A stretch of 64,000 bases of DNA, from NCBI GenBank assembly GCA_016234495.1, contig JACRBI010000007.1, forward strand, positions 1 to 64,000. Direction: 5' to 3'. Below are positions 27,069 to 62,040 of this stretch, piece after piece (position 1 is the stretch's first letter; the number at the start of each line of letters is the position of its first letter). This DNA comes from Chloroflexota bacterium. GTDB taxonomy: Bacteria > Chloroflexota > Anaerolineae > Anaerolineales > Villigracilaceae. The translations under genes and the position numbers were made by a program. The notes under the pieces are model-generated. The model was not told the DNA's origin, did no database searches, and worked only from the letters and a program-made list of their open reading frames with translations.

Positions 27069-30000
27069 ATGTCCGATTTTTTATTTCGCGGCGATCTTGC
27101 CAAGCTTGACCCTGACGTTTTCGATCTGACCCAACTGGAAGCTGAGAGGCAGGCGAGGAAGTTGATCCTGATCCCAAGCGAATCCACAGCGCCGATGGCC
27201 ACCCGTGAAGCGTTGGCTTCGGCGTTCCAGAATATTTATGCAGAAGGCTACCCTGACGAAGAGTCGCGTTGGATGACCGAAGAAGAAATTCTCGATTATC
27301 CCGCGCGACTTGCTGATTATCGCCGCAACGGTGACCCGCGCTATTACAAAGGCGTGGAATACGCGGATGCTGTCGAAGCCCTCGCCCGCAGACGCGCGGC
27401 AGAAGCCTTTGCAGCCAACGGCATCACAGCCGACCAGATCTTTGTCAACGTGCAGGCGCTTTCGGGCGCTCCCGCCAACAACGCGGTCTATCAAGCCCTG
27501 CTGAATCTCGGCGATACCGTCATGGGACTCAACCTCCTGCATGGCGGACATCTCTCACACGGCTCGTCGGTCAATCGCTCGGGGAAATGGTTCAAGGCTG
27601 TGCATTACACCATTGATGCGAATGAGAAACTTGACTATGACGCGATCCGCGCTTTGGCGTTGGAGAACAAACCCAAGCTGTTGATCGCAGGATATTCATC
27701 CTATTCATGGGTTCCCGATTGGAAGAAGTTCCGTGAGATCGCGGATGAAGTCGGCGCATATTTCCTCGCGGACATTTCCCACATCGGTGGACTCGTGGCG
27801 GCGGGAGTTGTGCCTTCGCCGCTTGGTCATGCGCATGTGATCATGTCTACGACTCACAAGTCACTTGACGGCCCGCGCGGCGCAGTCTTGCTGACAACAG
27901 ATGCGGCAATTGCCAAGAAGATCGACAAGGCTGTCTTCCCCGGTGAACAGGGCGGACCGCACGTGAACGTATTTGCTGGTTTGGCGTTGACCTTCAAACT
28001 CGCGCAGACAAAACAATTTAAACAGTTGCAAGCGCAGACCATCAAGAACGCGGCGGCAATGGTTGATCAATTCACCAAGCGCGGACTGCGTGTGCCGTTC
28101 GGCGGAACCAATACCCACATGCTGAATGTGGACTGCACCACTGTGGTCGGTGAGGATGGCACAAAATTAAGCGGCGATCAGGCCGCGCGCATTTTGGACA
28201 TCGTCGGCGTGGTGGTCAATCGCAACACCATCCCCGGTGACAAGAATTCGGCTGACCCAAGCGGCATCCGTCTCGGCACGCCGTGGATCACTCAGCGCGG
28301 ATTTAACGAAAAGCAATCCCGTCAACTGGCCGATGTCATTGCCGATGTGCTTCTGGCGTGCGCGCCTCACAGCGTGGACACGGTCAAGAAAGGCAAACAA
28401 CGCCGCGCCAAACTGGATTTCAATGTAATGAATACTGCCAAGTTGAAGGTTAGAAAGTTAGCAGAGTCTGCGGGCATTGATTTCAAATTCAAGAAGAGCG
28501 GGTATCCGCATTTCTATTATGTGGATGAAAAAGCCAAGACAGGCGTGTACGAATTAAGCGGACAGCGCATTCGTCAGGTTTTGGATTTCGCGGTGTCTTC
28601 TGATTTTTCGGCATTGAAGAAGGGCAAGACCCAAGTCACATCCATTGCTACACCAAAGGGTATTGTGAAGGGCTTGTTGAAGAACGTGGACAACAACACC
28701 TATCAACTGCAAGTGCCTGTCAAGAATGCTTCGGCAGTGGCTACCTGGCTGCGCGATCTTTCGGATGGATACACATCCTTCAACGTGGATGGGACAAAAG
28801 ATTTCAGCGCGAAGCGTATGGCGGGGCCGTTTGTGGTGAATGAAATCAAAACCAAATTAACGGCGACCGTTCCCCCACTCAAAGGTGGAGTCAAGCCCTG
28901 GTTCATCGGAGTCAGTTCTCAGGTCAAGGAAGATGCGCTTCCTTCGTTCGAGTGGAATGAATCCGAGGGCGAACTCAAGAAAACAGCGTTGAATCAAACC
29001 CATCGAGACTTGGGCGGCAGAATGGTACCCTTCGCTGGTTGGGAAATGCCTGTGCAATACACGGGAATTTTCGAGGAGCACCTTGCCACGCGCAATGCGG
29101 CGGGGCTGTTCGATGTTTCGCACATGGGCGTGTACGATGTGCGCGGCGCGGATGCGGCTTCGTTCCTTGATACGGTCTGCGGCAATGACTGCGGCGGACT
29201 GCTGCCCGGCGAGTCTTTGTATTCACACTTCCTGACCCCCGATGCGGATGTGATCGATGATACGCTCATCTATCGCCGCGGCTGGGACAATTATCTCGTG
29301 GTCGTGAACGCTTCGAACGATGACAAGGATCGCACATGGCTCGAAAGCGTGCGCGATGGCAAAGTGAAAATTGACAACGCCCGACCGTGGGCGCGGACGT
29401 ATGGCTACAATGCTGAAATCCGCAACCTGCGTGACCCGAAATCTGGTTCTGAAATGCGGGTGGATATTGCCCTGCAGGGACCAAAGAGCCGCGACACGCT
29501 GCTGGCAATGGGCGTGGACGATGCGACCCGCGCGCGCATTATGAAGTTGAAGAGAACTGAATTGTGCGATGCGGTGGTTGGCGGCTTTGACTTAATTGTT
29601 TCTCGCACGGGTTACACAGGCGAGAAGATGGCTTTTGAATTATTCGTCCACCCCGAACGCGCTGTGGACTTCTGGCTGGCGGTGATGAAAGCTGGTGAGC
29701 CATTCGGCGTGAAGCCCATCGGTTTGGGCGCGCGTGACTCACTCCGCACCGAAGCAGGCTTGCCATTGTACGGTCACGAAATGGGACTTGGCTCTGGCAA
29801 ATTTGAAGGCCGCGATCTCGGCGTGGCAGAAGGCGGATTCGGTTCCTACGTCAAACCGTACAAGCCGTGGTTCATTGGTCGCGATGCCTACGTGGCTCGC
29901 GAGAAAGAACGCAAGGGAGCGGTCATCCGCTTCACCTTCGATGACCAACGCGTGCGCATGGCGCACAACGGCGACCCCGTGGTGAATGCGAACGGCGAGC

Positions 30001-30176
30001 GCATTGGCTTTGTCACCTCCTGTGCCATTGATGGTCAGCGCTTTATCACAGGTCAGGCCTATTTGAATTTTGAGTACACCAAGGAAGGCACGCCGATTTT
30101 GATTCACCAGGGCGGCGTGATGGATCGTCCCGCCACGGCGGCTAAGGTGGTATCGAGGTTTGCAAAACTTAAGTAA
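27069..30176 (+). CDS. Fused serine hydroxymethyltransferase - aminomethyltransferase (GlyA-GcvT)
   Basis: The 1035-residue protein joins two one-carbon enzymes. Residues 1-450 are SHMT (serine + THF to glycine + methylene-THF), with ILIPSES, SGAPANNAVYQAL, the STTHKSLDGPRG PLP-lysine motif (Lys near 263) and GTNTHM. Residues about 450-635 are a linker or extra domain I cannot assign. Residues 635-1035 are GcvT (T protein), which takes the aminomethyl group from GcvH to THF: GGRMVPFAGWEMPVQY, LFDVSHMG, SRTGYTGE, LGARDSLRTEAGLPLYGHE. Both halves look intact. Fusion would pass folate one-carbon units between serine and glycine chemistry. No gcvH or gcvP is in the window. Confidence 0.93.
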   Translation: MSDFLFRGDLAKLDPDVFDLTQLEAERQARKLILIPSESTAPMATREALASAFQNIYAEGYPDEESRWMTEEEILDYPARLADYRRNGDPRYYKGVEYADAVEALARRRAAEAFAANGITADQIFVNVQALSGAPANNAVYQALLNLGDTVMGLNLLHGGHLSHGSSVNRSGKWFKAVHYTIDANEKLDYDAIRALALENKPKLLIAGYSSYSWVPDWKKFREIADEVGAYFLADISHIGGLVAAGVVPSPLGHAHVIMSTTHKSLDGPRGAVLLTTDAAIAKKIDKAVFPGEQGGPHVNVFAGLALTFKLAQTKQFKQLQAQTIKNAAAMVDQFTKRGLRVPFGGTNTHMLNVDCTTVVGEDGTKLSGDQAARILDIVGVVVNRNTIPGDKNSADPSGIRLGTPWITQRGFNEKQSRQLADVIADVLLACAPHSVDTVKKGKQRRAKLDFNVMNTAKLKVRKLAESAGIDFKFKKSGYPHFYYVDEKAKTGVYELSGQRIRQVLDFAVSSDFSALKKGKTQVTSIATPKGIVKGLLKNVDNNTYQLQVPVKNASAVATWLRDLSDGYTSFNVDGTKDFSAKRMAGPFVVNEIKTKLTATVPPLKGGVKPWFIGVSSQVKEDALPSFEWNESEGELKKTALNQTHRDLGGRMVPFAGWEMPVQYTGIFEEHLATRNAAGLFDVSHMGVYDVRGADAASFLDTVCGNDCGGLLPGESLYSHFLTPDADVIDDTLIYRRGWDNYLVVVNASNDDKDRTWLESVRDGKVKIDNARPWARTYGYNAEIRNLRDPKSGSEMRVDIALQGPKSRDTLLAMGVDDATRARIMKLKRTELCDAVVGGFDLIVSRTGYTGEKMAFELFVHPERAVDFWLAVMKAGEPFGVKPIGLGARDSLRTEAGLPLYGHEMGLGSGKFEGRDLGVAEGGFGSYVKPYKPWFIGRDAYVAREKERKGAVIRFTFDDQRVRMAHNGDPVVNANGERIGFVTSCAIDGQRFITGQAYLNFEYTKEGTPILIHQGGVMDRPATAAKVVSRFAKLK

Positions 30177-34727: not shown

Positions 34728-35069
34728 ATGGAAACGAAATTAAAATCCATTCCTAAAGAAAACGTGCCTGGCACATGGAAGACCGCTTTTTTGAAGGGTG
34801 AGTGTCCTGCATGCGGCAAGGTGAGTAAATTTCAAAATGTGGATTTTGGTCTTATCAAAGCTCCCCTGCTAACTTTTGTAACGATGGTAACCAAGCCAAG
34901 AACCTGGGTTCAGAAATTATTGAGCAGCCCTTTACTGGCGATTGAGTGTCAAAACTGCAAACACACGATGGCTTATTGTGAAAATTGTAAACTGGGTTAT
35001 AGCGTTGACCCATACGCTCCACTCAGCCAATGCCCAAGCTGTCACAAAGAATATTGCGGCTGGGGATGA
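34728..35069 (+). CDS. Zinc-ribbon protein
   Basis: The 113-residue protein has four CxxC pairs: CPAC (about 27), CQNC, CENC and CPSC near the end, enough for two zinc ribbons. The middle is hydrophobic (LLTFVTMV) but too short and mixed to be a clear membrane segment. GGAAGG lies upstream of the ATG. I do not recognise a named family. It follows the DnaQ-WYL gene by 27 bases and ends at a strong bidirectional terminator. Confidence 0.7.
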   Translation: METKLKSIPKENVPGTWKTAFLKGECPACGKVSKFQNVDFGLIKAPLLTFVTMVTKPRTWVQKLLSSPLLAIECQNCKHTMAYCENCKLGYSVDPYAPLSQCPSCHKEYCGWG

Positions 35070-35123: not shown

Positions 35124-35160
35124 AAGTAGCGGCGGAGCAATGCTCCGCCGCTACTTTATT
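35124..35160. terminator. Bidirectional terminator, zinc-ribbon gene versus FrnE-like gene
   Basis: A perfect 15-bp GC-rich stem (35124-35138 with 35142-35156) with a 3-base loop, followed by TTTATTTTT on the plus strand. It overlaps the last codons and stop of the minus-strand FrnE-like gene (stop at 35151-35153). Confidence 0.85.
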
Positions 35161-35756
35161 TTTGCAATCTGCGCCAGCGCATTCTTGAAGGCTTCATAAG
35201 GCTGGGCGCCGACGATCGCATAACGGTCATTGATCACGTAGGTCGGGACGCCTGTTACGCCGATCTGCTGTGCCCACCTCACCTGCTCTGCGACCTGCGC
35301 GGTGTACCTGCCGCCATCCACAACGGCCTGCATGTCCTCGCCATCCAAGCCGACTTCTTCGGCAGCAGAGCGGAGCACAGCCCAATTGCCGGGGTCTTGT
35401 CCATCGGCGTACACTTTGCGGAAAACCACGCGATGGAATTCATGGCCCCTCTCCCGTTCGCGGGCATATTCCGTGGCTTCGTGCGCGGTGCGCGTGTTGT
35501 AAATCCGCTCGGTGGATTTGAACTTCAAACCATGCAAATCTGCCAGACTTTGCAGGCGTTCCTCCGAGCCGTTGGCACGCGCGCGGAGAATGTAATCGGG
35601 CAAGTCCATGCCTTCGGGCGGAGTATCGGGGCGCAAATAATACGGACGCCAGTCCACATCCACTTTGTATTCTGCTTTCAACAAGTCAACCACACCCTGG
35701 CCGACATAGCACCACGGTCAGATGTAATCAGAGAAGATGGTCAGTTTGAAGTCCAT
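35151..35756 (-). CDS. FrnE/DsbA-family oxidoreductase with in-frame UGA at the first active-site Cys (candidate selenoprotein)
   Basis: The ATG at 35756 (AAAGGA 7 bases upstream) opens a 201-residue frame that runs to a stop at 35151, except for a TGA at codon 13 (35718-35720). The start reads MDFKLTIFSDYI-TGA-PWCYVG, where FrnE relatives have DYICPWCYVG. UGA thus replaces the first Cys of the CPWC redox motif. Downstream the family features are intact: WRPYYLRPDTP, a helical insert and cis-Pro GVPTYVINDRYAIVGAQ. Length matches the family. A hairpin suited to a bacterial SECIS lies just after UGA. Alternatives are a nonsense mutation or a sequence error. A GTG at 35693 would give a protein without the active site. 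Confidence 0.7.
35685..35705 (-). promoter_or_regulatory. SECIS-like hairpin after the UGA codon
   Basis: In the mRNA, GUCGGCC (35699-35705) pairs with GGUUGAC (35685-35691): 7 bp with two G-U pairs. The loop is AGGGUGU (35692-35698). The stem starts 12 bases after UGA, and the loop lies 20-26 bases after it. This fits the spacing of bacterial SECIS elements, with a G near the loop start. It is short, so chance pairing cannot be excluded. Confidence 0.5.
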
Positions 35757-35793
35757 TGGCAATCCTTTAGCTGTTAGCTAAGACTGCCAATGG
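35753..35793 (-). promoter_or_regulatory. Hairpin covering the ribosome binding site and start codon of the FrnE-like gene
   Basis: CCATTGGCA (mRNA side 35785-35793) pairs with 35753-35761, which holds the start ATG (35754-35756). After one mismatch, a further ~8 bp pair around the AAAGGA ribosome binding site (35763-35768), with a 2-base bulge and a 3-base loop. About 17 bp in total would hide both signals. Confidence 0.6.
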
Positions 35794-35817
35794 GCATGGG
35801 TTCTTACATTCAATTTT

Positions 35818-60796: not shown

Positions 60797-60850
60797 TTAC
60801 GATAAATTCACTCCAAATTCTAATCCTATTTTAATGTTATTCGGACTATT

Positions 60851-61007
60851 CAGGTGTATATTCTAGCCATCGACACCTGCCCTCCCCTTTATTGGTATCT
60901 AGGTGTCAACCCGCCGCTTGATTAGCATGCCCCCCCCATGCTGACAAGCGGCGGAACCTTTCCCCTCCTGCCTCCCCCAAATCCCACGAACATGGATTTG
61001 GGGGAGG
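60851..61007 (+). ncRNA. Cluster of three hairpins, possible small RNA or leader
   Basis: Hairpin 1: CAGGTGT/ACACCTG (60851-60857 with 60873-60879). Hairpin 2: CCGCCGCTTG/CAAGCGGCGG (60911-60920 with 60945-60954) with an inner AGCATG/CATGCT stem and C-rich loop. Hairpin 3: a perfect 14-bp stem (60971-60984 with 60994-61007). They fill the space between the NYN gene and the deacetylase gene. Hairpin 3 lacks a T-run on the plus strand. No match to a known family that I recall. Confidence 0.4.
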
Positions 61008-61032
61008 TTGCTTTCAGGGCTATAATTTAAAC

Positions 61033-62040
61033 ATGAGCACTGCATTTGCCTTTGTCCCATCTCGGACGCACAAATTTCCAGATCACCCCGAAAGGTCGGG
61101 GCGGTTGGATGCGCTCGAGCCCATGCTCGCTTCCTTTGACGCTGAAAAAATCGAAGCGGTGCAAGCAACCTTTGAAGAGGTTGCTCGCGCGCATCATCCA
61201 AAAATGATTCGCGCAATTGAGGAAGTCTGCCAAGACGGACCTGGCATCATTGACCACGCCCCCACTTTCATTACTAAAACATCCTACGAAGATGCGCTGC
61301 TCGCGGCGGGCGGTGTGATTGCTTGCACGCGCGCGGTGCTTCACGGTGATGCGCAGAACGCCTTCTCCATTGTCCGCCCGCCGGGGCATCACGCCGAACC
61401 CGATCGTGCAATGGGATTTTGCATCTTCAACAACATCGCCATCGGTGCGCGTAACGCACTGGAACATGGAATGCAGCGCGTGATGGTCATTGATTACGAC
61501 GCGCATCACGGCAACGGAACTCAAGCCGCATTCCTTCACGAAGATAGAGTCGGATTTATCTCGAGTCATCAATGGGGAATTTATCCCGGCACAGGTTGGA
61601 TCACAGATGCGCCTCATGCAAAGGGACGGCTGGTCAATGTACCCTTGCATGAGTTTGCAGGCGATGGAACTTTCGCGCGCATTGCCGATGAAATCTTTCA
61701 GCCGCTGGTTGAGTCATTCCGTCCACAGATGCTGTTAATTTCGGCGGGCTTCGACGCGCATTGGAATGACCCGCTCACATCGCTGGGGTTGTCCACGCGC
61801 GGATATTATGAGATGTCGAAAAAACTGGTTGGGATCGCGGATGAATACTGCGGCGGAAAAATTGTCTTTGTGCTTGAAGGCGGCTACGACCCGCACAACG
61901 TCGCCAACGGGGCGGGAGCTGTCTTCGACGCATTGACCCACTCACAGTTAAGTCACGACCCGAACGACCCGTCGCCGTATACCGATGTGGATCACGAATC
62001 CCGCATCGCTGAAATTTTAAAATGGCAGGGCATCCCGTAG
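61033..62040 (+). CDS. Histone deacetylase-family (AcuC/acetylpolyamine amidohydrolase-like) protein
   Basis: The 335-residue enzyme has the class II HDAC core: HPERSGRLDAL, IVRPPGHHAEPDRAMGFCIFNNIAIGA (catalytic His pair), VIDYDAHHGNGTQ (zinc Asp and His), SSHQWGIYPGTG, LISAGFDAHWNDPL (zinc Asp) and LEGGYD. It removes acetyl groups from lysine or polyamines by a zinc mechanism; the substrate in this cell is unknown. Full length, no signal. Confidence 0.94.
   Translation: MSTAFAFVPSRTHKFPDHPERSGRLDALEPMLASFDAEKIEAVQATFEEVARAHHPKMIRAIEEVCQDGPGIIDHAPTFITKTSYEDALLAAGGVIACTRAVLHGDAQNAFSIVRPPGHHAEPDRAMGFCIFNNIAIGARNALEHGMQRVMVIDYDAHHGNGTQAAFLHEDRVGFISSHQWGIYPGTGWITDAPHAKGRLVNVPLHEFAGDGTFARIADEIFQPLVESFRPQMLLISAGFDAHWNDPLTSLGLSTRGYYEMSKKLVGIADEYCGGKIVFVLEGGYDPHNVANGAGAVFDALTHSQLSHDPNDPSPYTDVDHESRIAEILKWQGIP

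Follow-up and report, generated by a model that had tools for sequence, protein, structure and literature searches.

A predicted FrnE-type selenoprotein of the DsbA family and its relatives in Anaerolineales

DsbA-like selenoproteins and the FrnE group

Selenium-carrying enzymes of the FrnE/DsbA kind have been predicted before, under COG2761, which we take to be the FrnE group, and the Anaerolineales gene described here joins this known group. DsbA-like selenoproteins with a UxxC motif were reported from the Sargasso Sea in 2005 as an entry for COG2761 (PMC1088965), the GOS set includes three DsbA groups (PMC2398784), and a 2026 review lists a "DsbA-like protein form 1" (PMC13188914). The name FrnE does not occur in the main text of these three papers or in that of PMC9312934. 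As described in these sources, the COG2761/PF01323 proteins share with the present gene the Pfam family, the UxxC motif, and a SECIS element just after the UGA. Compared by description only, the Sargasso entry consists of 9 sequences in a table, whereas the material here is a lineage within Anaerolineales with a tree, switches between selenocysteine (Sec) and Cys, and a candidate promoter.

FrnE of Deinococcus radiodurans (5cnw) has the same fold and a motif of the CPWC/UPWC type. It carries Cys where the Anaerolineales enzyme is predicted to carry Sec, and it has a C-terminal CxxxxC motif that is absent from the 201-residue FrnE-like protein studied here. According to PMC8945050, this second motif is present in many FrnE proteins but not in all, and hence does not define them; FrnE of D. 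maricopensis and FrnE of S. roseofulvus also lack it. Another set of DsbA-like proteins, with CPWC or CPFC, includes Rv2466c of Mycobacterium tuberculosis and NCgl2478 and NCgl2339 of Corynebacterium glutamicum (PMC8280269). By that account these are Cys enzymes tied to mycothiol, unlike the Sec enzyme proposed here, and Rv2466c (4nxi) is more distant in fold (Z 14.5). Under oxidative stress, NCgl2478 requires the ECF sigma factor SigH (PMC8280269), in parallel with the ECF-like candidate promoter of the Anaerolineales gene.

Has this lineage been noticed before? In the open-access literature searched, no description was found of a conserved Anaerolineales lineage of Sec-FrnE or of an ECF-like promoter common to Sec-FrnE and a DUF1684 gene, and nothing on a selenoprotein UGA in Chloroflexota MAGs. 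The same literature held no selenoprotein paper on bacterial FrnE by title and none linking DUF1684 to a sigma factor.

A DsbA-family gene with an in-frame UGA

The gene occupies positions 35154..35756 on the minus strand of the window, by which we mean the whole 64,000-nucleotide stretch of DNA analysed. It has 201 codons, running from an ATG at 35754-35756 to a TAG stop at 35151-35153, and the frame is open except for a single inner TGA at codon 13 (35718..35720). The translation is MDFKLTIFSDYI-U-PWCYVGQGVVDLL, with U at codon 13. An initial annotation had claimed that this TGA stands where the first Cys of a CPWC motif is expected, within an intact frame of 201 codons. Both claims hold: relatives have Cys at this codon, and the start and stop codons are in place, with a Shine-Dalgarno-like AAAGGA, seen by inspection, at 35763..35768 (minus strand), 6 nt upstream of the ATG. 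The putative resolving Cys, which is invariant in a 26-row alignment, is encoded by TGC at codon 16 (35709..35711, minus strand). Residue 13 aside, it is the sole Cys of the protein, which ends at residue 201.

With the UGA read through, the protein matches Pfam DSBA (PF01323) at E 8.4e-42, scoring 143.5 bits against a cut-off of 25.6, and its best sequence match among solved structures is FrnE of D. radiodurans (E 1.1e-25). For an AlphaFold model based on an alignment of 26 sequences, the mean pLDDT is 95.9. The top five Foldseek matches to this model are all D. radiodurans FrnE entries (E 3.3e-15 to 2.8e-14), and the same set makes up the top five in VIA-align, with Z of 25.3-25.9 over 199-201 residues; for 5cnw, Z is 25.9 at 30% identity over 199 residues. 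The residues that are invariant in the 26-row alignment are D10, Y11, residues 13-16, L41, A91, P171, and G183. P171 is the cis-Pro, assigned by position, and the protein thus has both the CxxC-type site and the cis-Pro expected of a DSBA thioredoxin domain. None of the five matches in an NCBIfam scan of the protein scored above its own cut-off; that to NF041057 (Rcas_1661 family thioredoxin-like (seleno)lipoprotein) reached 46.1 bits, below the cut-off of 190.

Codon 13 in relatives

How widely is the TGA shared? Among 400 genomes searched from the order, 83 yielded matches at E <= 1e-20, 86 in all; an inner TGA is present in 69 of these matches and absent from 17. Loci were taken for 79 of the 86; those left out were one with TGA (a second G041 copy) and six without, all six at 49% identity or less. 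A further 52 loci, many on contigs already in the set, were added from named genome contigs. Altogether 140 loci were examined, four of which (L049, L050, L051, and L104) had no usable match over codon 13. Removal of identical copies left 112 distinct ones, with TGA at codon 13 in 73, TGC in 31, and TGT in 8, such that all 39 non-TGA copies have Cys at this position. To the question of whether TGA or TGC/TGT aligns there in close relatives, the 75 distinct copies with at least 50% identity give a clear answer, with TGA in 63 and TGC/TGT in 12; the 37 copies below 50% comprise 10 with TGA and 27 with Cys. The TGA recurs, in genomes assembled independently of one another, in close homologues with protein identities as low as 57%. 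One TGA copy, L115, has an additional inner TAA. A tblastn search of plasmids returned 799 records, all below 60% identity.

A maximum-likelihood tree was built from 79 rows, consisting of five distant copies and the 75 close ones minus L115, which was omitted for its second stop. It needs 6 Sec/Cys changes, and 6 are forced by well-supported branches. Cys copies lie inside the Sec clade, namely, L108, L067, L099, and the pair L040/L041. The pattern reads as repeated replacement of the predicted Sec by Cys, the direction not being fixed by the tree alone.

Two observations concern more distant proteins. Six loci (L044, L045, L046, L047, L157, and L162) form a second, distant DsbA-like group, at 26-35% identity; they share the position of the TGA, and most have a different hairpin, GAGTCC-GGTCT-GGACTC. 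L161, at 32% identity, has UPFC in place of UPWC and a perfect 7-bp hairpin. As to the G041 pair, contig 1 of that genome carries equal-scoring copies at 968-1552 and 4397940-4398524, near both ends of the 4.40-Mb contig, and they may stem from overlap in the assembly rather than from genuine duplication.

The hairpin after the UGA

A hairpin starting 12 bases after the UGA, in the right place for a bacterial SECIS, had also been claimed, and it bears scrutiny. It lies at 35685..35705 on the minus strand, where 12 nt after the UGA are followed by GUCGGCCA-GGGUG-UGGUUGAC. The stem has 8 bp (35685-35692/35698-35705) and encloses the loop GGGUG (35693-35697); alternatively, it can be drawn with 7 bp and the loop AGGGUGU. 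The first base of the loop GGGUG, a G, stands 20 nt after the UGA. Folded alone, the hairpin has an energy of -9.8 kcal/mol, and the centroid fold of the 66-nt stretch is this same hairpin. The bacterial SECIS model, as given in PMC13188914, allows a loop of 3-9 nt, a stem of 4-16 bp, a G in the first two loop positions, a distance of 16-37 nt from the UGA, and an MFE at or under -7.5; with GGGUG, 8 bp, 20 nt, and -9.8 kcal/mol, the hairpin falls within each of these limits.

By folding energy, the 66-nt stretch does not stand out from chance (z 0.55, with 139 of 200 shuffles equal or better), and the five Rfam matches at the locus with E of 10 or less include no SECIS family. RF00031 had no matches in the genome, but it also had none in any of 14 control genomes and is therefore uninformative. 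What places the hairpin beyond chance is not its energy but its retention across the TGA homologues. Seven of seven stem pairs are kept in 54 of the 63 TGA copies and six in the other 9, while among the 12 Cys copies three pairs are kept in 3, four in 5, five in 3, and six in 1 (L099); the copies are related, and such counts are not independent. Codons 19 (GGC) and 22 (GTG) are identical in 63/63 TGA copies and codon 18 (GTC) in 61/63, and all three codons vary among the 12 Cys copies. Across codons 18-23, pS is 0.085 in 60 TGA copies (the three below 60% identity being left out) versus 0.69 in the 12 Cys copies; elsewhere in the same 60 TGA copies, it is 0.61-0.68 (codons 1-12, 14-17, and 25-50). 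The 45 nt after codon 13 fold to a mean of -12.3 kcal/mol in TGA copies versus -8.7 in Cys copies (p 3.5e-4, ignoring relatedness). Of five independent tree pairs, which are too few to reach significance, four show the expected direction for stem versus Sec, one shows no difference, and none is opposite (p 0.125); for codon 19, four or five of the five go in the expected direction and none is opposite. These patterns show selection on the hairpin, as on a SECIS element, in the TGA copies.

The ten distant TGA copies mostly have other hairpins near the same place, with G at the loop start, such as CGAGUCCG-GUC-UGGACUCG in 4/10 and UUGCAGC-GGUC-GCUGCAA in 1/10; two or three of these ten copies have only a short or doubtful stem. 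Because the lineage contains close Sec and Cys relatives that differ in having the SECIS, it offers a clean natural comparison, both for the benefit of Sec to a FrnE-type enzyme and for the decay of a SECIS. The Cys relative L056/L108, for example, has about 83% identity.

Selenocysteine machinery

Sec decoding of the gene would call for selA, selB, selC, and selD elsewhere in the genome, and a search for them found all four. In the genome, which comprises 4.1 Mb in 57 contigs and is 98% complete, a tRNA-Sec with the anticodon TCA (UCA) scores 66.3 bits, above the Rfam cut-off; it lies on the window's own contig about 35 kb past the window end. SelB scores 360.8 bits over positions 2-580 of 581, SelA 552.7 bits, and SelD 341.7 bits; the selD gene itself contains an inner TGA, which falls in the motif AGUASK. 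SelD, encoded by the complement of 1501-2433 of L021, therefore seems to be a selenoprotein too. Among 41 genomes compared, 24 have the TGA form, with a match at E 3.5e-20 or better; weaker matches with an inner TGA, such as that in G038 (E 7.0e-8), are excluded from the 24. A selA match is present in 24/24, in 23 of them above the curated cut-off. In the 24th genome, G026, the selA match is confined to a short piece that lies 11 bases from the start of a contig. Two Cys-form genomes, G012 and G023, retain selA, so that the change to Cys there was not accompanied by loss of SelA.

How is the UGA read?

The Sec machinery, the SECIS, the TGA/Cys alignment, and the absence of decay all support Sec decoding, as the initial annotation had proposed. 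From these sequence data, we hold with high confidence that the gene encodes a FrnE-type DsbA-family thiol-disulfide oxidoreductase, probably cytosolic, with Sec as the nucleophilic active-site residue (U13-P-W-C16).

Could the UGA be decoded as Trp or Cys instead, through reassignment or read-through? This reading is very improbable. UGA terminates another gene nearby, at 34728-35069, and the selA and selB genes of the genome have no inner TGA, both of which make general reassignment unlikely. Where codon 13 is not TGA, the residue is always Cys, a tRNA-Sec is present, and the synonymous freeze is confined to the hairpin, as SECIS-directed Sec, unlike reassignment, would lead one to expect.

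There is next to no likelihood that the UGA is a true stop and the product a 180-residue protein from the GTG at 35691-35693, which is where a mechanical ORF list, starting the gene after the UGA, places the start. Such a product would be without strand 1 and the whole active site, where most invariant columns sit, and it is the ATG that the Shine-Dalgarno-like sequence precedes. Codons 1-12, moreover, evolve as coding sequence under purifying selection (pN/pS 0.127), which indicates that they are translated together with the downstream part. Since an ORF caller that starts after the UGA loses the active site, the enzyme is likely misannotated across the group. A nonsense mutation, a decayed gene, or a sequencing or assembly error, as might be suspected from the early stop codon in the frame and from the further TAA of L115, can be dismissed as extremely unlikely: the same TGA recurs in most of the close homologues, in genomes assembled separately, which speaks strongly against sequencing error, and purifying selection acts both before and after it, with no sign of decay.

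The upstream region

Upstream of the gene, at 35781..35807 on the minus strand, lies an element, GTAAGAA-N16-GTCT, that recurs upstream of homologues. In upstream regions of 150 nt (28 nt for L038), GTAAGA-N16..18-GTC is found for 42/75 homologues, compared with 0.125 expected from mononucleotide shuffles. A GTC in the -10 block and a spacer of about 16 nt are typical of ECF sigma factors. Tt-RpoE1, for one, is described with a GTC core in its -10 element (PMC3397946). The element is therefore a candidate ECF-type promoter.

Which other genes carry it? In the 57 genomes of the genus, TGTAAGAA-N16-GTCTA has 24 matches, in 22 genomes, against 10 for a reversed control pattern. By downstream frame, 12 of the 24 precede the selenoprotein gene, and these are not independent, because the pattern was derived from that gene. 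Nine precede a gene starting much like MTELDAFRAEKD, two lie within 300 nt of an FtsH-like frame (a weak assignment, as L184 has another short frame nearer), and one stands before cytochrome b561. With 10 control matches, some of the 12 that do not precede the selenoprotein gene could be due to chance, but nine before one gene family hardly so. The family is taken to be DUF1684: Pfam gives E 1.1e-41 for the L199 protein, and the nine genes in relatives were identified by eye from their N termini. In the window's genome, GTAAGAA-N16-GTCT has two matches, before the selenoprotein gene and before the DUF1684 gene with this Pfam value, and one control match. That the two genes share a promoter-like element is an initial clue to the conditions under which the enzyme is used, and it ties in DUF1684, a protein of unknown function.

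The leader also contains a strong inverted repeat, at 35753-35793 (minus strand), CCATTGGCA...TGCCAATGG, whose 3' arm includes the start codon. As an RNA, the repeat folds with a z of -5.06. A role as an RNA hairpin masking the ribosome-binding site was considered and dropped: the 5' arm overlaps the promoter spacer and the GTC block, and an RNA started at the promoter-like element would therefore be without the full hairpin. A pattern for the 5' part of the repeat is found in 12/57 genomes of the genus, once each. Over 41 leaders, arm pairing averages 6.56/10, versus a re-dealt mean of 5.89 (highest of 500, 6.27); the excess is modest and may be due to relatedness. In 19/41 leaders, three of them from Cys copies (L067, L099, and L108), pairing is possible at 8 or more of the 10 arm positions.

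Proposed mechanism and use

In the proposed mechanism, SelB carrying the Sec-tRNA(UCA) would bind the predicted hairpin just 3' of the UGA and insert Sec. The U13 selenolate would then attack a substrate disulfide or mixed disulfide, C16 would resolve the intermediate as a selenenylsulfide, and a thiol donor would re-reduce the enzyme. The frame, the UGA, the SECIS-level selection, the genes of the Sec machinery, and the predicted fold are established by the present analysis, whereas we infer the actual insertion of Sec, the reductase direction, the cytosolic location, and the thiol donor.

When might such an enzyme be needed? Deletion mutants of frnE in Deinococcus are more susceptible to oxidants (PMC8945050). 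From these phenotypes, by analogy, together with the promoter-like element and the SigH dependence of NCgl2478, we infer a stress-induced cytosolic disulfide reductase or isomerase, whose induction by redox stress would proceed through an ECF-type sigma factor. A bolder proposal, put forward only tentatively and on balance doubtful, is a dedicated ECF-type stress regulon with Sec-FrnE and DUF1684 as core targets, which would make the disulfide-stress response of this Anaerolineales lineage selenium dependent. If so, the Sec-to-Cys switches in single species, with their SECIS decay, would mark escapes from selenium dependence.

Other features of the window

Including the selenoprotein gene, 29 frames in the window bridge a single TGA. 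A Pfam scan of ten of those frames gave one match, Hist_deacetyl (60835-62037), which starts after its TGA, and no match for the other nine, so that these ten frames give no indication of a second selenoprotein gene. A 1,035-residue frame at 27069-30176 (plus strand) combines, by Pfam, an SHMT domain with an aminomethyltransferase (GCV_T) domain after it and is a fusion of two glycine one-carbon enzymes. Finally, a GC-rich palindrome at 35124-35156, with 15-bp arms and the loop AAT, lies between convergent genes and overlaps the stop codon of the selenoprotein gene; from its sequence, it looks like a two-way terminator.
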